Of a DNA stretch of 64,000 nucleotides, positions 45 to 64,000 are shown one piece after another. The translations under genes and the position numbers were made by a program. The DNA comes from Tribonema minus (Eukaryota > Sar > Xanthophyceae > Tribonematales > Tribonemataceae). The number at the start of each line of letters is the position of its first letter. Position 1 is the first letter of the stretch. The stretch lies in contig JAFCMP010000099.1 of assembly GCA_017506865.1 (NCBI GenBank), positions 1 to 64,000 of the forward strand, given 5' to 3'. The notes under the pieces were generated by a model that was not told the DNA's origin, ran no database searches, and was given only the letters and a program-made list of their open reading frames with translations.

Positions 45-2562
45 GAATGCTTTTGCGGAAGCCATCGCTGCTCCCATCGCGAGCGTCGCGCACATCATGC
101 CATCTGATCAGCAGACGCTGCTCGCGACTTTCAGTACACTTCACGTTCACGAGATTCATTGAACATCCGAAATATTTTTTTATTATTTGCTTTTGTCACG
201 CTGCGCTCATTCCGCACCCCCATGTGACGTGGACTTTGACTCGTCGCAGACGGTCCACATGCGCACCAAGCAGCTGACGGAGCGCCTGCAGGTGCACCTG
301 CTGTGCGTGGCGCTCGCCGTCGAGGAGTGCAGCCTCGACTTTGCGCCGCTCGCGCACGACCTCAAGCTAGACATCAAGAAGGTACGCTATGTCGTAAAAC
401 GGCCCCCCTATCTGGCTGGTTTTTGCAAGTCCCCGGGGGGAAGCCGGCAGTGTGCCAAATCATACCTCGTGCTGACAGGCACTTTGCGCCGATCGCGCGC
501 GACCTAAAGCTCGACATCAAGAAGGTGCGCCGCGTGCTTCATTGACTTCCGCTCGAGGGGCGAAAACCCTATTCTGCACCACGTCGCATACAACTCGCAA
601 CACAGTATGTGTGCTCTCATTGAGCTTGTACAAACTCCCGGCACAGCAAGCGCCTGCAGGTGCACTTGGTGTGAGTGGCGCTCGCCATTGAGGAGTGCAG
701 CCTCGACTTTGCGCCGCTCGCGCACGATCTCAAGCTAGACATCAAGAAGGTAGACTACGCTATGTCGTGAAGCGGCCCCCTTGTCTGGCTGGTTCAACCT
801 TTGGGGTTTCCGTCTCTGGGTCATACGCTACGGGGACCAGGCGTAGAATGGGTGCTTTTTGCAAGCCCCCCGGGGGAAGCCGGCAGTGTATTAAATCATA
901 CGTCGTGCTGACAGGCACTTTGCGCCGCTCGCGCACGACCTCAAGCTAGACATCAAGAAGGCATGCCACTCTGCACTTGCATGAGCGTCACATCCTGCCT
1001 TCTGGGCTTTCCATACGACTTGTACGCCACGTACTTTATTGGCTTCTGCTTAAGGGGCGAAAACCCTATCCTGCACCACGGCGTATACAGGACGTAATAC
1101 AGTAGCTCCTATTGAGCTCGTCGGCACAACACAGTACCGCAAATGCCCAGGTAAATGCCCCCCCCCCCCCTCCCCCCCCTGTGGAGGCCCATCCCCTTTG
1201 CAAACGCCCATGGGCGCCCCTTGCCAGGGCAATTTTGGCAACGTTTCCCCCCCACCCGTTGTAAACACCCCCTAGCAACCATAATGGCACCGCTGCCTTG
1301 CAGGAACAGAATGACGATTACATCAAGCCGTACTTCAACACTATTCGTTTTCTGAGTGCTTTACATCTGCCGACGGATGGCCACACAAGCAACAGAGCTC
1401 GCTTGACAGGAGTTACTGCAGCTGCAGCAGCCTCGCCAGCACCGCCATCGCCTGTCATTAGAGGTGTCCGCCAGCGCAGCGCCGTGTCAACACGCCCCCC
1501 CCCTCGGGGCCCTTGGAAATGCCCGCTCGCTCTTGTCAATGCCCCCTCCTGAAGCTAGCAATTCTTAAAAGGCGCAGCTGAGCCCATTCCCCCCTTGTAC
1601 ACGCCCCCTCCCTGTGTAGAGGCCCATGGGCGTGCCGTGCAACGCTGGCCCCGGGTTGCGTTAATTCGGGCATTTGCGGTAGTCGGCCTTGTTGTGATGG
1701 CTGGGGCGTGCTCATGCAAAGGCAGCTCCTGCACGTGCGCTCCTAGATCATCATTCGCCCGTGCTGCGCATGCAGCGTGTCAGGTGCTTTATCAACATTG
1801 GCTGCGCACCGCCTGTGTCCATCGTGTGTCAAGCCATCTTTGCCTGCTGTCGTGCGGCGCAGCGCGCGCTTGCACCGCGCTTGGCTTGATGTGCTCAAGT
1901 CTCTCAGGTGTGCTTCTCGTCGCTATCAATCAGGCCCCGCCTGGTCTGGTATATCGTGACATTAGCGGTAAGCTGCGCCGTTCTGGCCACGGCGTACGCA
2001 ACGCCGGTCACAATCTCCTTCACCACCGCGGTCCCAAACCACCCAATCTGCACATACCTCATGATGTGTGCATGTGCACAACGTTGTGAACTCGTCGCTG
2101 ATGTCAACTTCCATGATGTGGGTTCGAGAGCATCCCAATGCCCCCCCCCTTGCATTGCAAGCGCGGTTGCTCTGACGCCGTTTCAAACGTGTCGCTCCCG
2201 TCGCTGCGCCCTTCAGGCGACGCAGCTCATGCGGCAGCTTGGCTGCACTGCACTTAACGCCATCTCACACGTGTCGCCATGACTGCTCCTTCGGGCGACG
2301 CAGCTCATGCGGCAGCTCGGCTGCGCTGCTCTGACGCCATCTCACACGTTTCGCCATGACTGCTCCTTCAGGCGACGCAGCTCATGCGGCAGCTCGGCTG
2401 CGCTGCTCTGACGCCATCTCACATGTTTCGCCATGACTGCTCCTTCAGGCAACGCAGCTCATGCGGCAGCTCGGCTGCACCATCAAGAGCAACTCCACCG
2501 TCGCGACGCTCAAGGTCCCGCTCAAGTTCCCCTCGGCGTCGCGGGGCAAGCGCGCAAACTGA
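45..2562 (+). CDS. RPA49: RNA polymerase I subunit RPA49 (A49/PAF53 family), 3' part
   Basis: C-terminal part of the A49 subunit of RNA polymerase I, which with A34.5 stimulates initiation and elongation on rDNA in the nucleolus. The secure exons are 250-381 and 2449-2562, both phase 0. The first gives LLCVALAVEECSLDF followed by LAHDLKLDIKK, the helical segment typical of the family (compare 'LALHVDDFRxDxxDLxxDLK'). The second gives LMRQLGCTIKS, then LKVPLKFPSASRGKRAN and a TGA stop, matching the family's 'LGC' motif and 'APLKFP' C-terminus. A probable earlier exon (about 45-130, reading AFAEAIAAPIASVAHIMPS) lies at the left edge, but its donor and join are unresolved. The 5' half of the gene is outside the window. 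The intron 382-2448 holds decayed copies of both flanking exons. Family assignment is by recalled sequence pattern, not by a search. Confidence 0.78.
472..2415 (+). repeat. Exon echoes inside the RPA49 intron
   Basis: At the 5' side of the intron, copies of the upstream exon's last codons and donor lie at about 472-526, 655-752 and 905-962. Each keeps variants of 'CACTTTGCGCC...ACATCAAGAAGG'; the second also keeps the start of the exon but has lost its reading frame. At the 3' side, three copies of the acceptor and first codons of the last exon lie at about 2209-2255, 2285-2330 and 2361-2410, in units of about 77 bp. The middle copy has lost its acceptor (TCGGG instead of TCAGG). The true acceptor is the fourth, at 2447-2448. 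Confidence 0.85.
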
Positions 2563-3559
2563 GCCCCCTTTGCGGGGGGGGGGGGGGGGGGGGGGGGGGT
2601 ACAGGAACCGCAGCACCTGCCTGTCTGGTGAGGATGAGCGCTGCTGCATCCGGCGTTATGCCCCCGCTTCGTATGTACGGTTCTGCCCCCCTTTGGAGCC
2701 TCAGGGTGCTGTGCGCCACGTTGGTTGCTGCGCAATTTCTGCCGTCGAAGCGGCGCGCGGACGCTGTCGGCGCACGCGCGCAGCTGCCGTTATCACAACC
2801 GTTGTGGGGGTGTGGGGGTCCTGCGTTTTGGTTTGAATAGTGTTAGGAGTTGGCCGGGATGGGGGGGGGGGGGGGGGGGTCTTGGCTTGCCTGAGACCTC
2901 CTCACAACAAGATTAATACAGCGACACTGACACTGACACTGACACAGCATTAAATGGGATCTTAACGGGTAGCTGTTGTCGCGCTGTGCTTTGCAACCTC
3001 ACATCATGTGCTCAGACCCGTGCTGCTCGGCAACGGGCAGCGCAGGGGGCTACTTGTCGACCTCTCCGTGGTGGGCTGCTCTCTCCTGAAGTGCTTGCTG
3101 CAGGCATCATGCAGCAAGGTAGAACCCGCATGCATGGCCTTCACGCCGAGTGCGTAGATTTTCACCGAAAAAGCACACTTCGTGCCACAGTGGCTTTTTC
3201 TGCATGATTGGAAATTGAAGAAACAATCACTTTTGCGGGGGCTGCCGACTTGGAAGGCGTGAGCGGCGTGGAGGTCGACGTTCTGTGAGCGGCGTTAACT
3301 TGGTGTTTTCAGCTCGCGGCATCATCCTTCCACCCCAGGTGCGGCCCGGCACATTACTCATGAGTCTCGTGACGATCTGAACACTCAATAGCTTTTGCGG
3401 AGGCTTCAGGTTGACTTGATGCAGCAGTGGCAACCACCTGATTCCTTGATGCATGCTGCGCAATCAGTACGTCTGGGCCAGGTGTCCCCGCAGCACGCTC
3501 GGTGTATTCACTTGGCGCTGTCGGCCCGCCTCAGGCTGGCATGACCGTCTGTGACTATC
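2563..3559. other. Intergenic stretch after RPA49, no gene seen
   Basis: Contains a G homopolymer right after the RPA49 stop (about 2574-2599), a second G run near 2862-2878 and a short GACACT tandem repeat (about 2921-2946). No exon chain with matching phases was found on either strand. RPA49 transcription presumably terminates here. Confidence 0.5.
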
Positions 3560-5990: not shown

Positions 5991-6168
5991 ACTTCAAGGT
6001 CACCACTGCAGCACCGCGACCTTGACTGTTATAGCGGCTGCCACTGAAAACATTACGTTCCCTGGACCAGGTGCATGCAGACCAGTCTATGACTAATGAT
6101 ATGACATAATGACTGCCTCGACGGCTCTGTCTGCTCTGAAGCGCAGCTGCGCCCCCGACTGCGTCACT

Positions 6169-9100: not shown

Positions 9101-12100
9101 GCAGTGCCAGGTGCGCCACATTGTCACTACAACCTGAACCTAGCGCAAGCCGCTGTCACAAATTTGACGCTGTGCCCGTTAGGTGATGTAAAATTTTCTG
9201 ATAATGTGGGGCTGCGGTTGCGTGGATATCGTGCCACTGTGCTTACCTGCGTACAAGTGGGTGCCGCCCCCACTCCCCTCCCCTGCTTGATGTAGATGCT
9301 AATGTTGAAGTTCATTGTTTTGTCTTTTGAGCTGTTTTTCTTTCTCTTTCACGCCATGTCTCCTATCGCTGCCGCACGCGCCCCGCGCAGCCCACGCAAC
9401 TGCCGACGCAAGTCCCCACCCACACGCCCACGGCAACCCCCACCGCACAGGTGAGCAAAGCAACAGGCCGTGACGTTACATACTAGCGTTCTTACCACAG
9501 CATTGGCGGCAGCAGAAGCGACGCGCGCTCCCGCCTGACAAGCTCTGTGAAACGCTGATTACTGTTGAGTGCCCAGCAATGGTTGGGATAAGATTTAGAG
9601 CTAGGTTAATGACGCTGGTGCCGCCCCAGCTCAGTCTACTAAGTGGCAGGCTGCGCCCCCCCTTGCTGTATCTGGCAGGCCAGAGTTCGTCAGCCACTGC
9701 AGCAAGTGCATCATGGGTATGCATGCGTACTCTGCAACTTCAAGTCAGCTTTGAGAAAGGGCCACGCGCTGCCGCATGACTAAGTGCGCGCTTCGCCATC
9801 TGCGCTGTGCAAGTTTGAGCGGTCCGATGGCCGAGGCGCGATTTGCATTTCACCGTCGCGCATAAGTGTCTCTTGCAATCTGGAAGCTTCTTGCAGCAAA
9901 AGGCGATAGCAAGCAAGCTCGCCGCATCTTGAACGGGCAAAGTTAAAGTTGAGGTTGCGGCGGCTCTATCGACTGGTCTTGTGCGCTGCCACACTTATTT
10001 GTTCTCACCCCCAACGTAACCCTAGCGCTAGCCACGGCCCGACTCCTCTTGTCGCCTATGGAGCTGCATGGCATGAGACGATGACGCGATAAATGCCGTC
10101 TGTCGGTGGTTGCGTGCGTGCCGTGCTGTACACTACCTGCGTCGTTTGTGCCCCCCCCACAGGCACAGGCAGGCACACAGGCTGATTTGTGATGTTGAAG
10201 TTCATTTTTCATCTTGAAGATGACGCTCTTTCCAATCTGCTGCTGATCGCTGCCGCACGCGCCGCTCGCAGCCCACGCAACTGCCGACGCAAGTCCCTAC
10301 GCGCACGCCCACGGCGAACCCCACAGCGCAGGTGAGAAAGATAACAGACAACATGAGATTACCAATGTTCTTAGCACAGCGTTGGCGGCGGCAGGAGCGA
10401 CGGGCGCTCCTGTCCGACAAGCTCTGTGAAACGCTGATCACTGTTGAGTGCCCAATAATGGCCAGGGCTAGGTTCAGGTTTAGGTAAGGTTAGGGTTGGG
10501 GTGATTGTTAAGGACGCTGGTGCCGCACCTGGCAGCTGAGTCCACTCAGTGGCAGGCTGCGCCCCCCCTTGCTGTATCTGTGCAGGTCAGATGCGTCATT
10601 TACTGCAAATGTATCAGTGCATGTGTTTTTTGCAATGTGAAGTCAGCGTTGAGATGAGCCACGCTCTGCCGTGCGTCTGGCTGCACGCGTCCGCATATAC
10701 GCTGTGCAAAAATAAGCGCTTCTAGCGGCCGGACGGCCGCGGCGCGCGTTGCCTTCAATGTCGCGCACAATATGCCTCTCGCAATCTGAAAGCTTCATGC
10801 AGCAGAAGGCGATAGATAGCAGCATCTTGAAAGAGTAAAATTAAAGTTGAGGTTGCGGCGGGTCTGTGGCCTGCTCTTGTGCGCTGCCAGATACAATTCG
10901 CTCTCACCCCAACATGACCCTAGTGCTAGCCACGGCCTGACTCCTCTCTTGTCGCCCACGGCACTGCTTGTCATAAGATGGTGCCGCGGTAAATGCCGTC
11001 TGTCGGTGGTTGCTTGCGTGCTGTGCTGTGCACTACCTGCGTCGTTTGCCCCCCCCGGGCTGACTCGTGATGTTGAATTTCATTCGTCATCTTGAAGATG
11101 GCACTTGATTCATATTACAGTGTGCTGCTCATCGCTGCAAGCGGGCACCCCCCCCCCCCCCCCCTGCCCCCTCAACCTTCCTCCGCTTGAAGGAAGAAAT
11201 GCTGGTGTTAAAGTTTATTGTTTGTCTTGAGTTTGACTTTTCTCTTCCGCGGCGTACTGCCGATCGCTGTTGCACGCGGCACGCACAGCCACAGCCCAAT
11301 TCCTGTTGTCGTCCATGGCGCTGCATGTCATGAGATGATGACGTGGGAAGGTACCTGCAAGGTTTGCCCCCCTCCCCCGGGCTGATTCGTGATGATGAAG
11401 TTCATGTGTATCTTGAAGATGGCGCTCTTATGGATACGCGCAATGTGCTGCTGATCGCTGCCGCACGCGCCGCGCTGCAGCCCACGCGACAGCCGACGCC
11501 ACTTCCCACCAGCACGCCCACGGCGAATCCCACTGCGCAGGTGAATAAAATCTTGATGGAAACAAATCAGAGATCGTAGAGCTCTAGGTGACAAGGCATG
11601 GTGAGCCGTCAAACTGAGTGCCTTTTACCAATAACCCTGGTCGCCGCTGCTGCGGCAGTTAACCATGAGTCAAGCAGTGCCACCGCATCCACAGTAGTCA
11701 AAGACTTCTGCGTGCAAGCTTTAATTTGCCAATGTTCTCACCAAAGCGTCGGCGGCAGCGAAATCGACAGGCGCAGCTGTCTGAATTGCTGCGACAGGAT
11801 GACTATCGCCGAGTGCCTGGTGGAGTGCAACCAACGCTCCCCTCGCCTGCGCCTCTAAACTTCAACGCAAACTCCCCTTGCTTGTGCCTGCCGCCACTGT
11901 GGTTTGTGTACTCACTGTCTCGACTGCAGCTGCCTCAAGTTGGAAGGCAAATACACCGCTGGAGCCCTATACGGGAGCCTGCCAATAAAGGGGGGGGGGG
12001 GGTGGCAGAGGGGGGGCAGCGGCACCAGTAGCCATGTACTGCAGGCTTCTACCTTACCGTGGTCAACAGCGGAGAGATGCAACCGCGCCGACTATTCGCT

Positions 12101-21458: not shown

Positions 21459-21738
21459 GGGTGGTTGGTACGCCACGCCATCTATACACTACAGCAGCAG
21501 GTTTGAAGCGCCGCCATCACGCTATTGATATACTAGCAGCAGGTTTAAAGCGCCGCCGCGGAGGCGGCTACGGGCCACCAGCCCTGCACCGGTGAGTGGC
21601 TGGGAAGAGGGGTTCCGAGGGCTGCCTGCGCTGCGTAGGCGGGAGGGGGGCGGCATTGTCTCATGAGGCAACGCCTTGGCCTTGGCGCACCGTGCCGCCC
21701 CGGTACGCTGCACCCACGGGGCGGGATCGTGGTTGAGG

Positions 21739-21829
21739 TGTGCGCCCAGATGTTGTCGATGCAACGCATCTCGGTACCTGTACGACATTGTAACGAGATG
21801 CGTTGTATCAGGAACACCTGGGGCGCACA
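21739..21829. mobile_element. Short foldback (MITE-like) element with 4-bp target duplication
   Basis: A 91-bp near-complete hairpin. TGTGCGCCCAGATGTTGTCG plus CAACGCATCTC pairs with GAGATGCGTTG plus CAGGAACACCTGGGGCGCACA. It is flanked by GAGG at 21735-21738 and 21830-21833. Same family as 7366-7566 in intron 1 of the secreted-protein gene; it keeps the GGTACCTGTACG centre but lacks the extra nested hairpins. Confidence 0.7.
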
Positions 21830-23379: not shown

Positions 23380-23507
23380 AGTATGAGGCGCGCCGCCGTC
23401 AGCGCAGATGGCCTTGGTGACCGGGCATGCGACTGTGCCATCGCGAGTCGGACTCCGAGTCAGAGTATGTACACAGGGTGCGCTGTCATTGTGGGTCAGA
23501 ATCTGAG
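23380..23507 (-). repeat. Partial copies of the last MAEA exon downstream of its stop
   Basis: The block GGCGCGCCGCCGTCAGCGC with CCTTGGTGAC, from the terminal exon (about 23524-23562), recurs at about 23387-23420. The stop-flanking CAGAGTATG motif recurs at 23380 and 23462. These lie after the stop, so they would be part of the 3' UTR. Confidence 0.6.
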
Positions 23508-28714: not shown

Positions 28715-28746
<32 letters not shown>

Positions 28747-35848: not shown

Positions 35849-35881
<33 letters not shown>

Positions 35882-44856: not shown

Positions 44857-45245
44857 GGCAGTCAATGCGTGCAGCTCTCACAAGCGCACCCTGATCACCT
44901 ATATGCGCATGTAGTCATTTCGTGTACGTATCAGCGCGTAATCATCTGTCAAGCTCACATAGTCGTTTCGGAACATGGTGAAGACGATCGAGCAGAGGAA
45001 GCAGGGATTGACAATGACGCGATGCATACAATGACGCGCAAAGCACTCTAGCACTGCACCTGTTGATGCAACGTCAAGCGTATAACTTCAAAGCGGCCAC
45101 CCTTTTTACTACTTCAAGTGGCCACCCCTCGACTACCCCGAAACGCGCCGCCAGTTGAGTCTGGTCCCATCCTCATGGCGTGCTGCCATAAGAACGACGC
45201 CAAATAAATTTGACAAGTGCTCGCGCCGTCGTGCTTCGTCGCCAG
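44857..45245. other. Short intergenic region between head-to-tail genes
   Basis: Should hold the 3' end of the upstream gene and the promoter and first exon of the next. The next gene's start codon was not found: the traced frame is closed by a TGA at 45211, and no ATG-bearing exon of matching phase is convincing. ACTTCAAAG and ACTTCAAGTG words lie at about 45089 and 45111. Confidence 0.45.
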
Positions 45246-51200: not shown

Positions 51201-54200
51201 TGTACGCGTGTGCCCAAGGTAAGTATATGGTACACGCGAGAGCAGGCCAACCTGGCTGTGCCGTGCATGCAGACCGCCCCCAGCTTCACTCAACGCGACG
51301 ATGGCGGCATCACGGCAGGCATGCTGAACTGCACAAAGCAGTGTGTCCCATGAGTTTGTAAACGTGGAGAGGTGCCATGACAGCACAAGCACCTGTAACC
51401 CAACCGCTGCTCTCGTGTGGTGACCCAGTGTCACCTGCAGCTCGCTTTCTCATGTCTCACTGCGACACGTCGGCGCGCGCGCTCGCTTGCAGGTCTACCT
51501 ACCGCACACGCAGCAGTCCTTCGCCGTCGCGGTGCACGAGGGCGAGCTGCGGCGCCACCTCTGCCGCGCGCTGCGCGTCGACGGCATCAGCGGCGCAGAG
51601 CTGCTGGACCCCGCCAACCTCAAGTGAGTGAGCGTCGCCTGTTGAAGCGGGCGCCGCGCGCCGGTTTGCAGTCTCGTGGCGGCTTAGCGCGGTTGTCGCC
51701 GCAGCTTGAAAACGCGTGCATCCACCATTTTGTCCGCACGCAAGGATACTGTCCGGCAATTGCAGTATTGCGCGTCGACGGCATCAGCGGCGCGGAGCTG
51801 CTGGACCCCGCCAACCTCAAGTGAGTGGGCGTCGCCTGTTGAAGTAGGCGCCGCGCGCCGCCGCGCAATGTGTGCTGGTTTGCAGTCTCGTGGCGGTTTA
51901 GCGCGGTTGTCGCCGCAGCTTGAAAACGCGTGCATCCAGCATTTTGTCCGCGTGCAAGGACACTGTCCGGCAATTGCAGTATTGCGCGTCGACGGCATCA
52001 GCGGCGCGGAGCTGCTGGACCCCGCCAACCTCAAGTGAGTGGGCGTCGCCCGTTGAAGAAGCCGCCGCGCGCCGCCGCGCGATGTGTTGCTTTGCAGTCT
52101 CGTGGCGGCTTAGCGCGGTTGTCGCCGCAGCTTGAAAACGCTTGCATCCACCATTTTGTCCGCGTGCAATGACACTGTCCGGCAATTGCAGCATTGCGCG
52201 TCGACGGCAGTATTGGCGCGGAGCTGCTGGACCCCGCCAACCTCAAGTGAGTGAGCGCCGCCTGTTGAAGTAGCCACCGAGCGCAGCCGCACGATGTGCT
52301 GATTTGCAGTCTCGTGGCGGCTTAGCGTGGTTGTCGCCGCAGCTTGGAAACGCTTGCATCCGCCGTTGTGTCCGTATGCAAGGACACTGTCCGACAATTG
52401 CAGTACTGCGCGTTGACGGCAGCAGCGGCGCGAAGCTGCTGGACCCCGTCAACCTCAAGTGAGTGAGCGTCGCCTGTTGAAGTAGGCGCCGCACGCCGCC
52501 GCGCTATGTGTGCTGATTGCAGACCTGTGGCGGCTTCGCGCGGTTGTCGCCGCAGCTTCAAAACGCTAACATCCACCATTTTGTCCGCAAGAAAGGACAA
52601 TGTCCGACAATTGCAGTATTGCGCGTCGACGGCATCAGCGGCGCGGAGCTGCTGAACGCCGCCAACCTCAAGTGAGCGCCGCCTGTTGAAGTAGGCGCCA
52701 CGCGCCGCCGCGCGGTGTGTGCTGATTGCACTCTTGCAACGCATGCCGTTTCCGCGTTCGAGCCGCACTTCAAGAACCGCAGGTCAAGGGGGGGGTGGAG
52801 AGGGGGGGGGGGTCAGCTCATCTGCATTGAGGCTGCCCCTGTTTCCATCCTCGCCCTGACCTCGCCCTTACTTCTGTTGCAATGCCGGCACTACAGAGGT
52901 GACGGGGCTGCCGCAAACTTGCAGCAACATGCAGTCCACAGCATTGGCTGAAGCCATTCGGAGCTTGTGACTCGGTACTAGTGCGTTCCGCATGCAGCAT
53001 ACGCGGTCCCGTGCGCGCCTGGCGCGCCGCCGCAGCCGTTTGGTGCTCGCATCTCCGTGTACTCCTTTTCAGGTGTCATTCGCGAGCTGGTAAAAACAAA
53101 TGTAATCCCCTACATAGTACATGTAAGTACTACAGTATGAGCACAGAGAAATTAGCTGTACTGCGCTGACACAAGGTAACCGAAACCCCTCTCCGATCCC
53201 GACAAAAGCTCGAGGAGCGGCACTCGTGGAAAGTTGAGGATGCCGCACCGCACCGCACCGCGGGAGCAGCGCTCAGACAATGGGCTCGCCTGCGCAGAGC
53301 GCTGCCATCTCACGTGTGACCCGCATGCGATCGCCTCGTCGTGACCCCAACCAGAGCAATGATGGCAGTGGCCACACCATTGGATTTATGCGCCACGACA
53401 CCATTGCGCTGACTTGATCCTTCATGAGAGCGACCAGCCTAGAGTACCAAGATTGATGCAATACGTCAAAGTAGTTCTGGTGTCACAGTGCTCAGATTAA
53501 AAGCGCCTCGTCGCGTGCCGCAGGACGTTGGTCGTGGGGCTGTCGGTGCGCGACTTCAAGCGCCGTGCGCCGCCAGACACACTCGCTGGCAGCAGCGACG
53601 GCGGCGGCGACGGCGGCGGCTGCTGCGGCGGCAGCCGCGGCGGCGATAGCAACAGTGGTACCGCTGATGAAAGCAGCACTGCGGCCCGCAGTGAGGATGC
53701 TGCTGGTGAGACGGAGTTGTAGATCACGTGCCCTGTTGAAGCAAATGGTGGCACTTTTGATGCACATCCTGCTGGGATGGAGAGTGATGTCATGCGAGGC
53801 GTGTCGGTTGTCATGCGCTGATTGGCGGTGGTGTGAAGGCCTTCAGGGAGGCAGCGGCTGTCACGCACACGCAGCCCTCCTGCCTATGGAAGTTTCAGCG
53901 AGTGTTGGCGCCTGACCTCGAGTTGCCATCAACGTGCAGCCCAGTCAGCGGCGCAGTAGCACTTCTTTCCGGTGCACCTTGACAAAGGGTATGTCAGATT
54001 GATAGAAGGCGTTTATGTCCACCATCATCCGCATTGTCTCGCCTGATGGCTGCTGATTGGCGCGCAGCACAGCGGCAGTGCTGCAGCGGCAGCGCCCTAA
54101 AGAATGCAGCCGCATACGGCCGTGGGATGACCGTGTTGCCTAGTTCATAGTTCACCCTTATCAACCGCGCATGCGTGCACTTTGCGCTCACCCTCTTTGC

Positions 54201-57200
54201 CCGCTCGTGCAGCTCCATCACCAGAAGCAGCTACAGGCAGCGGCAGCCTCGCTAGCGCCGGCGGCGGCGGCGGCGGCGGCGTTGAGATTTTCCTGCGCAA
54301 GCGGTGGCCGCCCGAGGCGGGCACGGTGGTGCACCGTTCCACGCAGCGCATCGGAAGCGTGCTCTATTACATACATGTACACAGGTGGGCCATGCACAGC
54401 TGGCCCCATACAATTCCTAATGAAGCAAATTACAGTTCAAGGTGCCAGCTTAGCGCGACCTCGCAGCTGCGTGGGTTTGGTGTGCTATTTCAGGTACTTT
54501 GAAGTACATGACTGGCTCTGCTACGTGGTATCATGTTTCACATAGCAGCGGGGAGCGCTGCAATTTCAAAACGCTGCCGGGACTTCCATTTTCACACGCA
54601 TACATCGAGTTGCCCACAGCATTATACTTCAAGTACAGCGTACGCAGCAGTCGCTCGAGCGACACCGCCTGCCCGCCTGCTGCTGCATACCTCTAGCTGC
54701 ACATACCTATGGCATGCGGTCATGTCAAGCAAAACTGCTGCCGTTGCCGCCCCTGCAGGTCCCCGCAGGAGCTAGTCTTGCGGCTGTATGACCCAGCCAC
54801 CAGCGCGAACACACGCATTCTGGTGCCGTTCAGAGGCAGTGCCAGTCTACAGGAGTGGCTAGAGTGGGAGAGAGATAAAGACAGGCGGGCGCGGCGCGCG
54901 GAGGTGCGTTGAGGGCTGACGCACAGAGCTAACCCTAGCCCTCGCCCTAACCTACCCCTAACTCTAACCTTAACCCTAACCCTGCCTCTAAGACTTGTCC
55001 TACTCCCAGCCCTGACCCTAGCCCTACTCCTAGCCCCGCCCCAAGCTCCCGGCCCTGCGCGACTCTGCTTCCTCCATTCTTACACATGAGATTCAGAAGG
55101 CGTACATACCATAGGGTTAAGGCTAGGGTTGAGGTTTGGGCCCTCTCATGTGCATGATTTCTACCTCTCTTGCTGCGCATGAGGCAAGCCGAGTCGCGGA
55201 GATGAGCACGTTTCATGCTTCTGCTAAGATATGCAGTTCCGCTGCGTCTGTTGACCATCTCTGTGACTGAAGCTACTCGCTCTGGTCGCCCCCCATACAA
55301 AATGCTCAGTTGAAGTGGTGCTGCCGCTTGCGTACACAGGCGGCGTAGGGCTAGGGGTCAAAATTACGCATCGTTGCAGCGCTCAAGCAAATGCAGCCGC
55401 GTGCCTAGTCGCGCTGGTCGGGGTTAGGCACAAATTGTTGCACACACGCTGCAGCAGTACCTGCCAGACTGCCATTTAACACAACCTCACACCGCCTACG
55501 CCTGTTCTACCGTGCGTGTGCAGGTGACGAAGCGCATCGTAACCGCACGCAAGCTGGTGCAGCTGCACTCGTATGGCGTCGCGGCGCCCGAGGGACAGCT
55601 GGCGGCCGCGCAGCGCGTTGTGCGGCACGCTGTTGGCAGCTCGAGCACCGAGGTGAGTGTTGAAATTGAAGTTGAACTTGAAGTCTTATGAGAAACAGGT
55701 GAAGCAGGACATGCACGCTACGAAGAGCGGCAGGGGCAGCTGGTGGTGGGCGGGAACAGCTTCACAGTTGAGGTTCAGCGCGCTGTTAAAGCTGAGCTTA
55801 AACTTGAAGTTTGACATGCACGTCATGCCGAGGTGCAGCTGGCCGCCACGCAGCGCGTCGTGCGGCACGCTGCCTTCAGCTCGAGCGCTGAGGTGAGCAT
55901 TGAAATTGAAGTTGAACTTCAAGTTTGATAAGAAAAAGTTTAACCAGGACATGCACGCCACAAAGAGCGGCAGGGGCAGCAGTTGGTGGGCGGGAACAGC
56001 CTTCGCAGTTGAGGTCTGACACGCTGGCATGAATACGAGCACTCAGGTGAGCATTGAAATTGAAGTTTTACATGCTAATGCAGCCGGGGAGGAAAATCCG
56101 AGGGAGAAGGTTGTCCGCAGCGCCTCGTACGGCACACTGCTGAGATGGGGGCGCAGGTGAACTCTGAACTTCAAGACTGGCATGCATGCCAGTAAAATGG
56201 CAGGGCAGCACAAAGGTGTGTGCGTGGGGGGGGAGCAGCTTCACACTCAACCATGGTCTGACACACTTTGTGCAGCGCGCCGTTGAGACATGCGCTCAGC
56301 GAGACACAGCCTTCTTTTTTGCACGAACCTTAGCGAGCAGAACACGTAGAGCGGCAGGGCTGCGCAAAGCTGGGGAACGTAGCTGCACGGGTGAGAAACG
56401 TGTATTCGTACGTATACACTTCTGAAGTACTTCGAAGTATATGTTTTCATGCGCAGCACGCCGACCAGTGCACGGTGGTGAGCGCCCGCGCCCCCCCCCC
56501 CGCCCCCCCCCCCCCGCGCCAGCAGCGCCTGTCCAGAAATTCAAAATAAACTCTTAAGCTACTGCGCTCCAAAGAGAAAGGCCACTTCAGTGGAAAAGTA
56601 GATCAGGCAGCGGCAAAAGGACGCTCACGTCAACTCTGCAATCTGTTGCTCACACGATGATTGCACACGTCTGAAGTGAACTGCTCTAGGTCGCTGTCTC
56701 CCCCCCCCCCCCCCTCTCAACCATATCAAATGGGGTTGTCCAGGCGGCTCACATGAGCACTGATGACCTCCCCCCCCCTTCACAACCAAACCTCATGTTA
56801 TTACTTTTCTCAGGCCGCTCAGTTGCGCACTAATGAGCCGCCCCCGGGGATGGAGCGCATCTGCTGAGCACTGCTGCCCCCCCCCCCCTTCCCTACCATC
56901 TATATATATACATGTATACATTCTTAAGATGGATCAGCTGAGCGTTGATGAGCCGCTGCTGCCGGAGCCGCATCAGCTGAGCACTCCCCCCCCCCCACCC
57001 CCCCCCCACCCCCCACCCCCTTCTTTCCCATCTATATATGTGTACATGTATGCATATTCAGGCAGCTCAGTTGAGCACTGATGAACCGCCGCCTCCGGAG
57101 CTGGAGGGCATCTGCGAGGGTCTGCTTGCACACTTTTGAAGGGAACTACTCTAGCCTTCAGGGTTGTTCAGGCGACTCAGCTGAGCACTGAGCGACTGCC

Positions 57201-57726
57201 CCCCCTCCCCCCCCATGTATCACGTTCACGTTCATCAGGTAGCTCAGCTGAGCACTGATGAGCCACCGCCGCCGGAGCTGGAGGGCATCTGCGAGGGTCT
57301 GCTGACGCCCTACGGAGGCGTAGTGGCAGATCTCGCACACTTGGGCACATCGGAAGCGGCTCTGCAGCCGCCTCCCGCGGCGCTGCGAGAGGACCTCTTC
57401 AGTCAGGCGCATGAGGTAACAATGTACTTCAAGTGTAGTGCACGTCGCAATATCTTGAGGTACTTCAATGGAATCACATACGGTATTCGTGCCTGCCAGC
57501 AGCTGCAGCAACGGCGTTGGCATCATCAGCAGGAGCATGCGCAACGCGGTGTCTATAGCGTGTGTTTTTATGTGCTTTGAGGAACCGGTTGCAAGACCCA
57601 TGTGTTGGAGCTCCTGATGGCTATGATGTCAGATGCAGTGGTTGAGCATTGAGAGATGGCCGCACTTGTGCGTGCAGACGCTCTGGCACTGTGTGGCTGC
57701 ACATGGGCCTAACCCTAACCCTAACC

Positions 57727-57758
<32 letters not shown>

Positions 57759-60700
57759 CAACCTAACCCTAAGACACCTGGTGTGGCTGCACATGGGCCA
57801 TGCCTCAATCCACAGGGACAAGCACGTCGCATCGCATTGCTCACTCATGAGTGTTTAATCCAGTTGAAGTGCCTGGGATCTGGTTGACTCACACGGAATC
57901 TGAACGACATGCCTCCCGATCGCGCGCGTTCGCTGCCTCCTGTGCAGGGAACGCTGATGCAGCAGTCTGGATCTCGCACAGACGCACCGCGTCATTGCTG
58001 AGAATACCATGCACGTTTCTTTACGCCGAGCTGCTTGAAACTGGCTGGCACGCTAACGGACTGGTCTAAACATCCTGCTGCCACTGTTTCAATCTGCAGG
58101 GAATGCTGATGCGCTGGCTGCTGCAGCGCCTGGTGGCTCAGCCGCACGGTGTGACAGGACAGGTGATGCTCACACCCAGACATGCGTTGTCAACGTCTGT
58201 AGAGCAGATCGTCAAAGACAAATGTCACTGTCAAATATCATGTCATTTTCAAAGATCATGTCAGGCCTGCGCAGGGCATGCGCCATGCAGCCGATAAACA
58301 GTGGTACCCTCGCACCTGGTAGCCCCAGCCGCACGCCGTGACGGGACAGCTGATGATCACGCTCAGGCACGTATAGTCAACGCCTGGGCCCTGCGCAGCC
58401 TGCATATGGCACACGAGCGTATGCACGTGGTCAAATGTACAATCACCCCCCCGGACTCACCCCGCGTGCAGTCCATGCCTTACATGTCAACATTAATCAA
58501 ATGTCACGGCCGCAAAGGCACTGCTGCGGTGGAGCTCTGAGAGCGCGTGCGTGCGACAGTAGATAATGTTCCACGTACTCATAGCACACCCACAAAGCCT
58601 TGCATATGCCTCTGTACTGACATCGTTGGCGTCTGCCGTTGCTTCCGTGGCCACAAACAAACGTGCATCAGAGAATCACCTGCTAACTCTGCTCTTGCTG
58701 TACTCGATGACCCCCTGCCAACAGGTCGTGAAGACGCTGTTCCAGGTGCAGACGGAGCGGTGGAACGCCGCCGCCACCAGAGCGCAGGGTAGGTATCAAT
58801 GTCGCAGTGTACATACCCTTTCCGCAGCCACAGTGCTCAACGCGGCGCACGCCGCATGCCCACACACAGTAGAGGTCGGGACGGTCTTGCCTGGCACACA
58901 AGAGAGCAGGATACTGTACGCGTCAAAACAGTTTGACCAGGCAATGCTGACGTCAGTCACAGGGGCACATATTCGTATCTAGCTGCGCCAGTTACGGTAG
59001 CGCTGACACCGGTCGGGCACGGGTAGCAATGTCCACTGGTAACTGCAGCAGTGCTCCCAGAGTTCATGGCCAGATCACCTTGTGAGGCAGTGGTCCTGAG
59101 TGCAATGCCGCTGCACATGCTGCGCAGGCAGGGCAGAAACAAGTGTGCAGTGGTATCGTGCTGCCGCTGGTGCTGGTGGTGCATTGCATAAACAGGTCGC
59201 GCTGCTTGGGCTGCGCTCTATGCAACCACGACGCTGCTGGTGCTGTGTTGTATGTACGCACGGCGCTGCAGGGGCGTGCCGCATGCGACTTGACCCCACG
59301 GAATGGCTCAACGAGTGAGTCGCAAATGTCACGCCGCTGCGCGCTCAGGTGACGTTGAAGCGAGGAGCTGCGGCTTGACCCCGCATGATGAAAGTTGTGC
59401 ATCTGTCATCGAGCCCTGAGTGTAACGCCGCTGCACGTGCAGGGGTGTACCGCATGTGGCGCGCGCGTGCGCGCTGCCGAGCGCTGCTGCGAGAGCAGTG
59501 GGTCAAGGGCTACGACACAACGCGCGGCGCCTTCTTCTACCGCCACGTGCGCTCAGGTCAGCGACGCAGGCCAGAGGTCATTCAAGCGCTTCAAGAAGTA
59601 TATTGTTGAAGTTTTGCACTACGCCGGCAACTGTGCTACAACCTGCAAGTTCTAGGCAGGTACCCAAACCCCCCAGCATTGCTGACATTCTGCCAGTGTG
59701 CGTCTGCCTCTGCAACCCTGACCTGCGCTGGTGGGACACCGCCACTTGCGCTTAGGTCAGTCGGCGAGGGGCATGGAGGCAGAGCAGCGCTGAAGTGTGC
59801 TGTACTGTCTGTACTGCTCGCTGTCGACGGGTTTACGTGCACGTGTGGCAGGAAGACGTGACTGTCAGTGTCCGCCGGCTTTCGCAATCTCGACCTGAAA
59901 TTCCGGGTGTGCATGGAGAAAACGCTATCAATGCGCCACTGATCGTTGCCATGCGTAGAATGCATCTACGCCTGCCATCAGCGTCACTGCATGCGTGCCT
60001 GCGAGCACACCCCGCATGGGTTTTCGGACAAGGCGAAATCTGCCGATGAACGCTTCTTACCGTACGAGGGGAAAAATGGAGACACAGACAAGAGGTACAC
60101 AGCGTCGTGACAGGGTGGAGTTCCTGGAACCTGTAGGCTTTTGTTGTGCTTGATATGTACTGCCGCTGCCGCTGGAAACGCGCGGCAACGAAGCTGCTGA
60201 CCGAAGGCCCCCCTGTTGATCTGTATTCTTGCATAAGGCGCCGGTGCTGAGGGGGAGTCGCAGCGGAGCGTTGCTGTCATAATTTCAGCGCACGACGCTT
60301 GGCATCCTGCCTGCCGCCAGTTGTACTTCAAGTAGTGACATGCCAGTCCGCCACCACGCACCACACTCCCCAGTGCTTGATTTTTTCCCATTTCTGAAAT
60401 GCATGACGTCAGAGCCCAGGCATATTGCCGCGGAAGCAAAAACCCTGTACAGCATCCGGCGCTGGGCGCACAGTGCGGAACTTCAACCTTCACTGTGAAC
60501 TTCAAGTGCAACGTCCACTGCGACCGCGAGAACGGCAGTCATGGGTTCAGTTCGTGAAGTGCACTCAGGCGTATTCTTTTTGTTGCGCACGGAGCGATGT
60601 GGCAGAGACACGCATTGATCATACATTCACTACGAGTACTGATACTCATACTGCAAGGCTGCCACGCTGCGTATGTGTGCAGGTTGGAAGCTGTGGGCGC

Positions 60701-63070
60701 GGCCGCGCCTGCTGCCGCGCGGCGAGGACCTGCCAAACCCGCCGCAGCGCTGGGAGGCGAAGGTGGACGCAGATGGTACGCTGCATGCTGTAGCAACAGT
60801 TGTCTCACATCAAAAGCTCACGCGCCCCTGTTGTTTGGATGTGTTGCCAACAAGTTGGGGTAGGCAGTGAAGGTGAGTTTGTCGCTTTGAGGTAAGGACC
60901 TGCCGAACCCCCGCCCTAGCGTTGGGAGGCAAAGGTGGCCGCAGACGGTACGCGCTAAATTTTTGAAGTCCGTTGCTCACATGTCCCAACTTTTATGTAT
61001 TCTTGAATGAGTTGGAGTACACTAATTATCGGTGAATTGTCACCTCGCAACGAGGACCTGGCCGAACCCGCTGCAGCACTGGGAGGCAAAGGTGGACGCG
61101 GATGGTACGCAGCAGCTTCCATATCACTTTCTCGGCTCATGCATTCCTTTTCAATGTGTCGTGATCAAGGTGGATTATGAAGTCGAAGTTGAGCTTGTCG
61201 CTTTGAAATGAGGACCTGCCAAACCCACCGCAGTGATGGGAGGCGAATGCAGACGGTGCGTGTTACATCTGCCAAGCACTGTAGCACCAATTGTCTCACA
61301 TTCGTTGCTCACATGTTACAATTTCATGTGTGCTTGTTGAAGCGAGTGTAATGATGAGTGAAGGGTAGTTGTCGCCGCGAAGCAACGATCTGCCCGGTCC
61401 GCCCTCGGGAACAGCCGACGCGGACGGTGTGTGTAGCAGCTGCTGGGCGTCTGCAGCACGAAACAAGGCAACTCTGTGCTTTGGACGAAGTCCTCCTGGA
61501 GGCCCATTTGAGCTGGCCTGGAAGAGCGTAGGCAGCACTTGCTGAAAGCTGAGCTCATAGTTGCGCTGCGACTGGCGAGTACTTGCACCGCATAAGCACA
61601 AGAGCTGCATATCATCTTGCACATCTCACGACGTGTCCGCCCCTCAAGCGGAGGCGAGTAAATAGAGCGCTTTGTCAAGTTTCTATGGGGTGCCCGCGCA
61701 CCACCGGCCGCATCGCGCCAGCGCACGCGGGCGCTGCGTGCGGCTGCCGATGCGCCTCCAACCCACCAGACTTGATTCTGCCGTTCCGGCGGATCGTGCC
61801 AGCTGCGTGCGGTTGCCAAAACGCATCCAATCACCATCCTTAAATCTGGTGTTTGCAAATCGGTCTCCGCCCAGGCTAGCAGCCGCAAGCCCCATGTGCC
61901 ACCTTGGGGCCACGTTGGTCCGCTGATTGCTGCATGTCCGCTTCCGGCTGAGACTGTGCTGCATGTGACCTGCACGCCAGAACCATCGCCTCTTTGCCCC
62001 CTGCTGGTACCTGGTTTTTTGTTCCATTTCGTGCTCAAATTGTTGAAAACTTTGACCAGCCCGCGCACGTGCAGGCGAGACTACCTCAACACGCCTCCAA
62101 CCCACCAGACTTCTTTCTGCTGTTCTGGTGCCGCCCCGCGCACGCATGCGTGCAGGCAAGACGTACTACCTCAACACGGCCACAGGCACCACACCGCGGC
62201 TGTAGAAACGCCTCCAACCAACTGCACTTTATTCTGCTGTTGCAACAGGTGGTGGTTGTGCCAGCTGCGGGCGGCTGGCTGCCGATACGCCTCTGACCAC
62301 CTTCATTCTGCTGCTGTTCTGGCGCCCCCCCCGCACGCAAATGCAGGCAAGACCTACTACCTCAACACGGCGACGGGCGCCACGTCGCGGCTGTCGGAGG
62401 AGCGCGCAGCAGCGCTCATTCAGGGCGCCGCCGCGACGAAGCTGGCGCCGTTCCGCTCGCGCGCGCTGGGGCATGGCGCGCTGTCGCTTGTGGACGTCGC
62501 CGAGGGGCGCAAGTTCCACATGCACGCCGAGGAAAACTACAGGTATGTACACACTTTCTTGAGACAAAACAATGCAATGTAAAGTATGTGGCAGCTGCAG
62601 CACTTCTGCAGGCGTGGTGGGTGCATCTGAAGTACTGGTGGGTGCATCACGCTAACCCTAATGCTACCCCTAACCCTATCGCGTCCGCACCCCTAACGGC
62701 TCAGCTGCGTGCTGAGCCTGGCGATGGCGCTGCACCTGCACCCTAACCTTGATTCTCACCCTCACCTTAACCCTACGTCTAACCCTAACTCTCAGCTGCG
62801 TGCTGAACCTGGCGATGGCGCTGCTCCCTGACAGTAATCTAACCCTACCCTAATGCTTACCCTAACCCTACCCCTACCCCTAACCCTCACTGCCTTTACA
62901 GGCTGCACCCCCAGCGGCTCAGCTGCGTGCTGAACCTGGCGATGGCGCTGCACCTGCACCAGGGGCAGCTCGGCAAGGCGCGGCGCCTGTATGAGAGCGC
63001 GCTCGCAATATCGCCCGACAACTCGCTGGTGCAGCGCGCGTACGCCATTTTCCTGTTGGCCAGTGCGCAG
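45246..63070 (+). CDS. Large IQ-motif, WW and TPR protein, 3' end beyond the window
   Basis: Nineteen exons, phases all consistent, about 800 residues: 45246-45471, 46069-46119, 46585-46706, 48020-48118, 48343-48432, 49828-49925, 50424-50506, 51493-51623, 53524-53705, 54213-54384, 54759-54903, 55524-55652, 57239-57415, 58100-58162, 58725-58788, 59443-59556, 60683-60775, 62347-62542 and 62902-63070. Exons 2-5 form a basic helical IQ-like array (AAAAVALQTLARMVPPRRR; RVASTRLQRWFRHERW) suited to calmodulin. The middle (LRRHLCRALRVDGISGAELL; SVRDFKRRAPPDTL; ELVLRLYDPATSANTRILVP) has no family I recognise. IQ-like YRMWRARARCRALL precedes WW 1 (QWVKGYDTTRGAFFYRHV ... KLWARP) and WW 2 (RWEAKVDADGKTYYLNTA), each split by a phase-1 intron at a Gly. 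Exon 62902-63070 is TPR-like (AMALHLHQGQLGKARRLYE; ALAISPDN). WW domains bind Pro-rich ligands and TPRs are scaffolds, so a calmodulin-regulated scaffold is inferred. First exon not identified; an extra exon near 48560-48800 is possible. Confidence 0.68.
46795..48010 (+). repeat. Echoes in the IQ-array intron (46707-48019)
   Basis: Donor-side copies of the third exon (CTGCAGACGCTCGCGCGC and GCGCGCGCTTCCACC with a GGTGAGTG donor) lie at about 46797-46862. Weaker ones lie at about 46960-46985, 47115-47150 and 47460-47530, each followed by a GCAGGAATYGCAG segment. An acceptor-side copy of the next exon (GCAGGGCGCGCGCAGCACGG) lies at about 47853-47920. Because the copies come from an IQ exon, they can pass for extra IQ motifs. 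Confidence 0.75.
48240..48275 (+). repeat. Donor-side echo carrying a hairpin
   Basis: Repeats the end of exon 48020-48118: GGTACCTGCAAGTCAGGTA at about 48104-48120 and again at 48250-48271. The exon end itself is a small inverted repeat (GGTACCTG / CAGGTA), so donor GGTA could be masked in the RNA. Confidence 0.6.
48432..48516 (+). repeat. Interstitial (TTAGGG)n fused to a splice donor
   Basis: About thirteen GGTTAG units with two GGTTACG variants begin exactly at the donor of exon 48343-48432 (GCG|GTAGGGTTAGGG), so the intron's first bases are telomere-type repeat. Confidence 0.9.
50490..51290 (+). repeat. Donor-side echoes after exon 50424-50506
   Basis: An exact copy of the exon end and donor (TCGACATGGTCCTGCAGGTA) lies at 50571-50590. 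It is followed by four more degenerate units of the intron start (GTATGTAC..., AAGGTAGGTAGGTATCTGGTG) near 50805, 50920, 51070 and 51200, about 110-150 bp apart. Confidence 0.8.
51700..52680 (+). repeat. Five near-identical donor-side echoes, about 215-bp tandem array
   Basis: After exon 51493-51623, the block from GCGTCGACGGC to the donor CCCGCCAACCTCAAGTGAGTG is repeated ending near 51823, 52036, 52250, 52462 and 52675. Units are about 212-215 bp and very similar. Each also carries TTGCCGCAGCTT-type and GGCAATTGCAG acceptors, so each looks like a 55-nt mini-exon with both splice sites. Since 55 is not a multiple of three, inclusion would shift the frame. Confidence 0.92.
54925..55060 (+). 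repeat. Degenerate CCCTAA tract
   Basis: Variants of CCCTAACC (CCCTAGCC, CCCTACTC, ACTCTAACC) fill the start of the intron after exon 54759-54903. An older, mutated counterpart of the clean arrays at 48432 and 57708. Confidence 0.75.
55825..57190 (+). repeat. Echoes on both sides of intron 55653-57238
   Basis: Donor-side copies of exon 55524-55652 (CGCAGCGCGTCGTGCGGCACG ... GAGGTGAGCATTGAAATTG) lie at about 55845-55925, 56040-56070 and 56113-56175. Acceptor-side copies of the next exon (CAGGCRGCTCASTTGAGCAC then TGATGARCCGCC) lie at about 56740-56775, 56812-56875, 56928-56990, 57057-57130 and 57165-57195. C homopolymers follow most of these. Confidence 0.85.
57708..57774 (+). repeat. Interstitial (CCCTAA)n
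   Basis: About nine CCCTAA units in the intron 57416-58099. The tract is bracketed by a repeated TGTGGCTGCACATGGGCC at 57691-57708 and 57782-57799, so it sits inside a short direct duplication. Confidence 0.88.
57940..58370 (+). repeat. Echoes flanking the 63-bp exon 58100-58162
   Basis: An acceptor-side copy (TGTGCAGGGAACGCTGATGC) lies at about 57942-57961. A donor-side copy (CAGCCGCACGCCGTGACGGG then ACAGCTGATGATCACGCTC) lies at about 58327-58367, with its GT donor changed to CT. Confidence 0.75.
60870..61440 (+). repeat. Donor-side echoes of the WW-linker exon
   Basis: Copies of GAGGACCTGCC.AACCC followed by GGGAGGCRAAGGTGG and a GCAGAYGGTACGC donor lie at about 60893-60956, 61049-61112, 61205-61262 and, weakly, 61383-61432. 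The true exon is 60683-60775. Period is about 155 bp. Confidence 0.85.
62055..62215 (+). repeat. Acceptor-side echoes of the second WW exon
   Basis: GTGCAGGCGAGACTACCTC at about 62069-62091 and GTGCAGGCAAGACGTACTAC then CTCAACACGGCCACAGGC at about 62150-62190 copy the true exon start at 62347 (GCAAGACCTACTACCTCAAC). A shared lead-in, CGCCTCCAACC, recurs with them and near 61748. Confidence 0.85.
62640..62890 (+). repeat. Acceptor-side TPR echoes mixed with degenerate CCCTAA
   Basis: CGGCTCAGCTGCGTGCTGAGC then CTGGCGATGGCGCTGC copies the TPR exon at about 62698-62743, and again at about 62791-62826. Blocks of CCCTAACCCTA-type sequence separate the copies. Confidence 0.85.
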
Positions 63071-64000
63071 GTAACTCGGTTGACCTTTCAGTAGTTGAGA
63101 ACTCTCTACAAGTATGCCAACGCAAAAATGAGAGCGCGCTCGCGATATCGCCCGACAACTCGCGCTCGCGATATTGCCCGACAACTCGCTGGTGCAGTGC
63201 GCGTACGCCATCTTCCTGCTGGCCAGTGCGCAGGTATGTTGATTGCACTTCAATTGATCTGAACTTCAACTTCCTCAAGCTGGTCATTTACATAAAAAAG
63301 GGATGAGAGCGCGCTCGAAAAATCGCCCGACAACTCACTGGTGCAGCGCACGAACGCCGTTTTCCTGCTGGCCAGTGCGCAGGTAACTTGGTTCAACTTT
63401 CAGTGTTCAAAAGTGCGATGTTGAAGAACTCCAAAGCAACCACACCCCCTGCAACGCCGCCCAACCACCCGTTGGGTGCACTCGCAACTTTCCTGCAGGT
63501 CACTGCACAGGCGAAATTGGTTCTTCTCAATTTTTTTCTCTTGTGTTTTCACATTCCGTCAAGTATGATGGGTGCTGAGCATGTGTCTCTGTGCTTTTGA
63601 GTTAAAGCAATACGCAAGTGCGTATTGTGACCTAACCCTAACCCTAAAACAAAGTCCTTGGGCGGGGGGAGGTGCCCGTTCCATGTGCAGTCGTACAGGC
63701 TCAATTAGCGTCTGGAAGTGCCGAGTGAGGCTAGGCAGGGGGCACTGCCTGAACCGCACAGAGTTTGTCACGTCGCCCACCGACTCGCGCGTACGCAGGG
63801 TTAGGGCTTGGCGCTGCGGTGCGGGCAAGGGCATGCGCGCATCACATGCTCAATCTTTGCAGTGTACACCACAACACTTCGCAGTATCGCGCTGAGAAGG
63901 ACAAGCGCCATACGCAAAGCATTTCGGGCGCGCCGCCCAGGCACTGGCAAATGGGGGCACTTGATATTACTACTCGCTCATTGCGAGCACAGCTGGGACA
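63071..64000. other. Intron after the TPR exon with donor-side echoes; rest unassigned
   Basis: Copies of the TPR exon end (GCCCGACAACTCGCTGGTGC ... GGCCAGTGCGCAGGTA) lie at about 63125-63235 and 63303-63385. The first contains an internal duplication of GCTCGCGATATYGCCCGAC. A weaker copy (TTTCCTGCAGGTCACTGCAC) lies near 63490. A possible acceptor near 63862 does not give an open frame in the needed phase, so the next true exon was not identified. Confidence 0.6.

Follow-up and report, generated by a model that had tools for sequence, protein, structure and literature searches.

Lengthening of introns is usually attributed to transposons and random insertions. In the human genome, repair-mediated duplications of proximal DNA have been described that are short and closely linked, with lengths of up to 619 bp, and that can include parts of exons and introns together with splice sites (Pace et al. 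2009, PMC2671141). Junction cases are rare in that survey: of the 824 events, Table 2 gives 4 as partial exon/intron donors. For the potato RdRp, Ma et al. (2016, PMC4974935) describe a tandem duplication over an intron-exon border in which inherited splice signals are reused; it created an intron that had not existed before and inserted an exon. The same class of mutation in genes underlies the tandem genomic duplication model of intron gain (Rogers; Gao and Lynch; Hellsten; as summarized in PMC3443670), in which an exonic segment is duplicated and an intron is created. In mouse stem cells, fill-in at break ends leads to small tandem duplications by end joining, in the experiments considered here at cut sites with 43 and 50 bp overhangs (Schimmel et al. 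2021, PMC8355091). Single junction-crossing duplications are known; a density comparable to the one described below was not found in the literature searched.

In Tribonema minus we observed junction-crossing copies in repeated arrays. With a less strict threshold, a duplication array touches a splice junction in 22 of 49 introns of conserved genes, from 13 loci, a figure obtained with a survey method and a denominator that differ from those of the human study. In contrast to the potato gene, an existing intron is lengthened here while the coding sequence is apparently unchanged, and the order of the copies is unlike that of the intron gain model. The process lengthens existing introns, unlike textbook intron gain. 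The nearest units at junctions, known from sequence alone, measure 63–204 bp (median 129), longer than the mouse overhangs and within or just below the 75–310 bp given in the initial annotation.

The window is the whole analysed stretch of 64,000 nucleotides of the 158 Mb assembly. An unsupervised gene finder started from seed ORFs converged on repeats; in its place we used an ab initio one trained on homology-anchored junctions. The exon models of the window are ab initio and its gene borders unproven. Predicted exons shorter than 45 nt were omitted from the side tests and from the scan of the window for copies of exon edges (echoes). Self-BLASTN (E≤1e-6) yielded 109 repeat pairs: 100 local (<3 kb) direct, 2 local inverted, 7 distant direct and 0 distant inverted, 6 of the 7 distant direct pairs falling inside one repeated 8.6–15.6 kb stretch. 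Scans of the window for tRNA and Rfam matches returned none. The main features are:

259–381, plus strand: predicted exon whose 3' end and GT donor are copied downstream (at 481–530 with 90% identity, to the donor; 338–382 versus 917–961, 100%)
481–530, plus strand: donor-side echo of exon 259–381 (score 75)
2210–2478, plus strand: array of a 77-bp unit, 3.5 copies (TRF, 94% matches)
2220–2248, 2298–2324 and 2375–2401, plus strand: acceptor-side echoes of predicted exon 2458–2562, inside the 77-bp array (echo scan)
24675–24844, minus strand: predicted exon with an acceptor-side echo at 24921–25001 (score 117, 89%)
25208–25275, minus strand: donor-side echo of predicted exon 25378–25439 (score 60, 78%)
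27386–27889, minus strand: 191-bp tandem array, 2.7 copies (TRF), beside predicted exons of a LisH/CTLH gene
Beside 27386–27889, minus strand: match identifying the LisH/CTLH gene (PF10607, E 3.6e-16)
41876–42089, plus strand: predicted exon with donor-side echoes at 42211–42274 and 42338–42398 (scores 98 and 97)
46585–46706, plus strand: predicted exon with donor-side echoes at 46794–46862 and 47462–47529 (scores 118 and 63)
51493–51623, plus strand: predicted exon whose last ~52 bases and donor are repeated five more times (copies at 51769, 51983, 52195, 52406 and 52620)
51663–52724, plus strand: tandem array, period 212 bp, 5 copies, containing five donor-side echoes (TRF, 88% matches, score 1648)
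56817–57126, plus strand: three acceptor-side echoes of predicted exon 57248–57406, at 57065–57126 (94%), 56817–56882 (77%) and 56934–56968 (86%)
60683–60775, plus strand: predicted exon with donor-side echoes at 60895–60953, 61043–61110 and 61210–61255 (echo scan)
62151–62203, plus strand: acceptor-side echo of predicted exon 62347–62542 (score 76, 89%)
62687–62827, plus strand: two acceptor-side echoes of predicted exon 62902–63070, a TPR-coding region (echo scan; TPR match)
62991–63092, copied at 63303–63404: repeat pair (self-BLASTN)

Altogether 19 of 142 exon edges in the window (exons ≥45 nt) recur one to five times, on the predicted side, within the intron next to them (score ≥45), and 22 of the 36 echo copies extend past the splice site by six bases, as far as the probe reaches. 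Exon 51493–51623 and its first two copies were also read directly as sequence. The initial annotation had reported such copies from 382 to 63400 and on both strands. Both ends of that range hold, the first at the GT donor ending exon 259–381 and the last within the downstream copy of the terminal repeat pair, and the two minus-strand exons 24675–24844 and 25378–25439 confirm the second strand. Its exact tally of at least 20 of about 50 introns in five genes was not reproduced, because the models are ab initio, some copies were called exons and the gene borders are unproven.

For genes outside the window we used dynein and kinesin genes whose exons were anchored by Pfam homology, with borders set by protein homology and GT/GC-AG sites; the kinesin sample comprised 12 of 20 chosen loci. 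The 24 loci taken contained 74 neighbouring exon pairs, of which 57 gave a resolved intron and 17 did not. Exclusion of 8 resolved introns whose splice scores were weak or whose HMM offsets were large left 49 clean introns in 22 loci. The echo filter also removed three matches judged to be real exons (L022 48–76, L027 302–327 and L034 125–155). A strong copy of the own exon edge (score ≥50) was present in 14 of the 49 introns, compared with 0.31% and 0.18% of 2276 pairs when introns of other loci were used and with 0 of 49 in the reverse-complement control, which excludes chance in the anchored genes. The few matches between loci, with scores of up to 102, may derive from paralogous genes. Own-intron matches are thus enriched over unrelated ones, and the junction echoes first noted in the window are real there and elsewhere in the genome.

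The rule that donor copies follow donors and acceptor copies precede acceptors was likewise sustained. Among 23 anchored exons the side test gave 5 + 5 matches on the predicted side and 0 + 0 on the wrong side; the corresponding values in the window were 10 + 5 and 3 + 2 (score ≥40, 66 exons), and in 20 other stretches with 84 ab initio exons 14 + 9 and 1 + 5, with 0 + 0 for the reverse complement (score ≥50). In the anchored introns 10 of 11 donor-side copies reach the last base of the exon, and its first base is where 8 of 10 acceptor-side copies begin. Where an intron contains edge copies of its own two exons, those from the upstream exon are closer to the donor in 10 of 11, L041 having one such copy beyond mid-intron, and those from the downstream exon are closer to the acceptor in at least 9 of 10. 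Inspection of the Pfam rows by eye gave 13 extra matches that duplicate the edge of an exon, each on the side predicted; no such match was present in the rows for PF12780. One further overlapping match, C537:37820-38026, allows two readings, a copy on the wrong side or an alignment extended too far. Near direct repeats were absent from 3 of the 20 other stretches, and no local duplication was detected in 23 of the 49 anchored introns.

Copies in the 29 junction arrays, all of which cluster in 13 loci, span exon sequence, splice site and intron sequence, and in 27 of them the position of the splice dinucleotide is aligned in the copy. Only 10 of the 29 nearest pairs are contiguous (spacer ≤12 bp). 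The others leave an unaligned remainder, either because the intronic part has decayed or because they never were tandem. Decay has also blurred the breakpoints of the duplications. Donor and acceptor copies occur together in 7 of 49 introns (p=0.089 for BLAST arrays, 0.0004 for stricter alignment matches); the two measures are at odds and repeat load varies between genes, so we make no claim on co-occurrence.

We are confident that tandem duplication masked by splicing is the best explanation of the echoes. Small tandem duplications would arise often in this nuclear genome, presumably during DNA repair. When one crosses an exon border, a second copy of exon end and donor, or of acceptor and exon start, would result. 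The spliceosome would keep the outermost site, as protein homology suggests, which would leave the mRNA as before and the inner copy enclosed within the intron; the conserved protein reading and the GT/GC-AG sites are consistent with removal of the inner copy from the mature mRNA. Such an event should be nearly neutral at the moment of duplication. The copy would then decay in an intron longer by one unit, later rounds of duplication would build arrays, and duplications wholly internal to an exon would be purged by selection. Pairs internal to an exon numbered 0 of 96, with 8.8 expected; such pair counts are not independent, one array yielding many pairs, and array counts were relied on instead. 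Copies of differing divergence suggest that introns grow continuously.

The decay of the copies is in line with this scheme. In pooled nearest pairs, which also contain gaps, exon parts diverge by 0.112 and intron parts by 0.180, a difference that is strong in the pooled test and only suggestive in the paired one (17 pairs, p=0.064). It would fit a trapped copy decaying while the exon is conserved. Mismatches at codon positions 1, 2 and 3 of the exon parts amount to 0.081, 0.100 and 0.154. Intron divergence is about twice that at positions 1 and 2, the ratio to be expected were decay at these positions confined to the trapped copy. Identity judged by eye did not fall steadily with distance along the arrays. 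The simple rule that the youngest copy lies next to the exon is therefore unsupported.

Introns with detected duplications have a median length of 758 bp, those without 479 bp, and subtraction of the duplicated bases leaves 486 bp. Local duplication across junctions, as envisaged in the initial annotation, is well supported and goes with longer introns; the link to intron gain is not supported, the copy order being the reverse of that expected. The initial annotation took the position rule for a simple consequence of local duplication. Duplication does explain the side on which the copies lie, but not the full excess at junctions, since this exceeds what uniform duplication combined with the simulated detection bias gives. 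Of 33 arrays 29 touch a junction, compared with 43–49% of detected simulated uniform duplications, the simulated items being about 1 kb each and thus offering a smaller search space, with detection similar and not identical to that in real loci. The p-values of 8e-8 to 3e-6 are guide values and optimistic, because arrays within a gene are not independent. The excess persists for single-pair arrays (15 of 19, guide p 0.002 to 0.008) and for arrays of at least 88% identity (12 of 14, guide p 8e-4 to 8e-3).

Survivorship could produce a similar picture: duplications would be uniform, exons would preserve one copy and selection would remove exonic events, so that junctions merely look favoured. 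The lower divergence of exon parts agrees with it, as do the absence of pairs within one exon (0 of 96, 8.8 expected) and the simulations themselves, in which 40–43% of allowed events crossed a junction and nearly half of those detected touched one. All three observed proportions lie above the simulated values, and we regard survivorship as a sole cause as possible, at less than even odds. For the excess we lean towards breakage or duplication being commoner close to exon borders. A more specific version can be put forward only tentatively: junctions may be hotspots of tandem duplication through a border-tied factor (transcription- or splicing-coupled breaks, or nucleosome edges), with introns extended at their ends round after round, selection destroying inner acceptors that compete and tolerating inner donors. 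GT or GC is retained at 22 of 23 distinct echo donors and AG at 21 of 31 echo acceptors (p=0.016 by Fisher's test, with one gap per class scored as lost). Primary echo donors score a median of 9.4 bits, real donors 10.5. This retention and the near-native donor scores would also suit echoes kept for a function, as decoy or alternative splice sites or as regulated cryptic exons. The codon-position pattern fits copy decay, the copies are partial exons and nearest-unit lengths divisible by three are not in excess (11 of 29), which makes a function improbable.

In the account of PMC3443670, gain of introns by tandem duplication is accepted, and each intron might have been born from a duplicated exonic AGGT segment (Rogers or Gao-Lynch model). 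From that model one would predict sequence like the downstream exon after the donor and like the upstream exon before the acceptor. The observed order is the reverse, the swapped test (exon end against upstream intron, exon start against downstream intron) gave 0 and 0 of 23, and most copies include intron sequence beside the exon part; we consider this origin very improbable. Introners, mobile intron-like elements that bring splice sites with them, would account for extra splice-site-bearing units inside many introns, but the window pairs are overwhelmingly local and direct (100 of 109), with no distant inverted pair, and exon edges match their own intron and seldom other loci. A collapse or expansion of repeats during assembly has to be considered as well, tandem repeats being difficult to assemble; against it, the copies differ by 11% in exon parts and 18% in intron parts, with gaps, and the pattern recurs across many contigs. 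Introners seem to us extremely improbable, and an assembly artefact hardly credible.

Visible local copies make up about a quarter (0.256, both copies counted) of the intron sequence analysed in conserved genes, and many of them are copies of the intron's own edges. The message can stay unchanged while the intron swells, splicing apparently hiding the extra copy. The exon changes slowly and so provides a yardstick for dating each echo, and the splice site of the echo can be set against the one in use. What competing splice sites cost and which of several tandem sites is chosen can therefore be studied with many natural replicates. Echoes can also be mistaken for exons by gene predictors. This was seen in our window models, where the gene finder sometimes called echo copies exons; predicted exon 693–766 is probably such a copy.

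Self-comparison of the window at E<=1e-6 returned 109 repeat pairs, comprising 100 local direct, 2 local inverted and 7 distant direct pairs. Since near direct repeats were also present in 17 of 20 further 10 kb stretches (median offset 218 bp), short local direct duplications are common outside the window as well. Of these stretches, two lie directly beside the window on the same contig, three contained no near direct repeats and near inverted repeats amounted to 2 in all 20. The window additionally holds a 2.5-kb near-tandem duplication (10241-12693 versus 13155-15624, 88% identity), nested in a longer repeated stretch (8.6-15.6 kb) whose open frames contain many threonine/proline repeats.

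Exon echoes, that is intronic copies of the adjoining exon edge plus splice site, were found, with exons predicted by a trained gene model, on the proper side (exon ends copied in the downstream intron, exon starts in the upstream intron) at 19 of 142 exon edges in the window, some edges having several. The last ~52 bases of the predicted exon ending at 51623 are copied together with the donor five times downstream in a 212-bp array. Echoes were sometimes called as exons by the gene model, which makes them an annotation trap.

Given the uncertainty of the window's gene models, genes elsewhere with Pfam-recognised exons were chosen for closer analysis. Dynein and kinesin genes are numerous in the assembly (158.2 Mb, 554 contigs), and anchoring with PF00225 (kinesin) and PF12774 (dynein AAA_6) gave 24 loci with 57 of 74 introns resolved; filters on splice score and alignment left 49 of these, in 22 loci. 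Their median length is 598 bp, with AG|GTGAGT-like donors and GCAG|G-like acceptors; GC donors are frequent (5/49, the GC-AG introns of loci L025, L026, L029, L030 and L031).

The initial annotation had described introns built from copies of their own splice junctions and proposed aligning introns to their flanking exons, in comparison with shuffled intron-exon pairs, as a check. Local alignment of exon edges (up to 90 nt, score >=50) to their own intron detected copies of the upstream exon end in 11/49 and of the downstream exon start in 10/49 introns, and of either edge in 14/49. Introns of other loci reached this score in only 0.31% and 0.18% of 2276 comparisons, with top scores of 73 and 102 in a set that includes paralogous genes. 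No exon edge reached it against its own intron in reverse complement (0/49). Donor-side copies extend to the last base of the exon in 10 of 11 cases, and acceptor-side copies begin at its first base in 8 of 10. The predicted position rule, donor copies after donors and acceptor copies before acceptors, was borne out: among 23 anchored internal exons five ends were copied in the downstream and five starts in the upstream intron, compared with 0 and 0 for the swapped sides. Ab initio exons showed the same bias in the window (n=66, score >=40; proper 10 and 5, wrong 3 and 2) and in 18 of the 20 other stretches (n=84, score >=50; proper 14 and 9, wrong 1 and 5), and reverse complements gave 0 in every comparison of all three sets. 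The junction-copy pattern is genuine and recurs across the genome.

By visual inspection of the Pfam rows, a further 13 matches are copies of an exon edge, 8 at donors and 5 at acceptors, and none of them falls on the wrong side; one more overlapping match (C537:37820-38026) is ambiguous and PF12780 rows contained none. At G000:C61:144397-146152 (contig C61, minus strand) Pfam alone detects, ahead of a dynein AAA_9 exon, four copies of the exon's 5' part that start ~160-180 bp apart.

In the anchored introns, 96 duplicate pairs cluster into 33 arrays in 26/49 introns. Arrays touching a splice junction account for 29/33 (22 introns, 13 loci), compared with 12.0 expected after random shifting. 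As exons slow the decay of copies, uniform duplications were also simulated in a model where exons are conserved, introns decay and indels occur, using the detection program and cut-off of the real search. Of the simulated duplications detected, 43-49% touched a junction (46% under a stricter cut-off). Against this, p ranges from 8e-8 to 3e-6 for the observed 29/33, from 0.002 to 0.008 for single-pair arrays (15/19) and from 8e-4 to 8e-3 for arrays of >=88% identity (12/14); since genes are not independent, these values serve as guides only. Pairs wholly inside one exon numbered 0/96 versus 8.8 expected. The median length is 758 bp where an intron has detected duplications and 479 bp where it has none; removal of the duplicated bases, which make up 25.6% of the examined intron sequence, reduces the former to 486 bp.

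Decay was followed in the nearest pair at each of the 29 junctions (14 donor, 15 acceptor; unit length 63-204 bp, median 129). Divergence was 11.2% in exonic columns (154/1381) versus 18.0% in intronic columns (277/1537), the latter understated as alignments stop where similarity fades, and gaps amounted to 2% versus 6%. Mismatches at codon positions 1, 2 and 3 were 8.1, 10.0 and 15.4%. Since positions 1 and 2 reflect mainly decay of the copy, and intron parts diverge about twice as much, the pattern fits a freely decaying copy of a conserved exon, with a weaker result when tested pair by pair (17 pairs, p=0.064).

Within echoes, donors are still GT or GC in 22 of 23 distinct copies, the one loss being a gap, whereas acceptors are still AG in 21 of 31 (10 lost, one of them a gap). 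The difference (Fisher p=0.016, with small numbers and related copies within arrays) hints at selection against competing acceptors. It is tempting to suppose that an inner acceptor, transcribed ahead of the real one, would compete with it and have to be lost, while an inner donor would be harmless.

The type of mutation is already known and single junction-crossing events are on record: in the passages considered, 4 partial exon/intron donors are reported among 824 human repair-mediated duplications (PMC2671141) and a potato duplication spans an intron-exon border (PMC4974935). That new introns can arise by tandem duplication is accepted, but the arrangement in that model, as set out in the passages considered, is unlike the one in this genome (PMC3443670). 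Titles and abstract openings, with subscription papers mostly outside this coverage, described no genome whose introns grow by repeated splice-junction copying, nor did the passages covered of the Phaeocystis globosa genome paper (PMC11347835). What appears to be novel is how dense the copies are, the recurrent lengthening of introns at their ends and the preference for junctions.

The host is a photosynthetic eukaryote, possibly a haptophyte, with 92 matches to light-harvesting genes. Compared with antenna chains in solved structures, one such gene fits fucoxanthin chlorophyll proteins best and another the multi-domain 'LHCI' chains of entry 9vfj, followed by ACPI/CAC chains; from their names we take these chains to be of the red algal lineage. 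One minus-strand gene in the window encodes a LisH/CTLH protein. Further features of the window are:
40838-63382, plus strand, very long predicted gene(s), single or several, with WW-like, TPR and alanine-rich stretches
28215-28262, 42483-42515, 48434-48515, 54929-54983, 57708-57772 and 62839-62887, internal telomere-like (CCCTAA/TTAGGG) repeats
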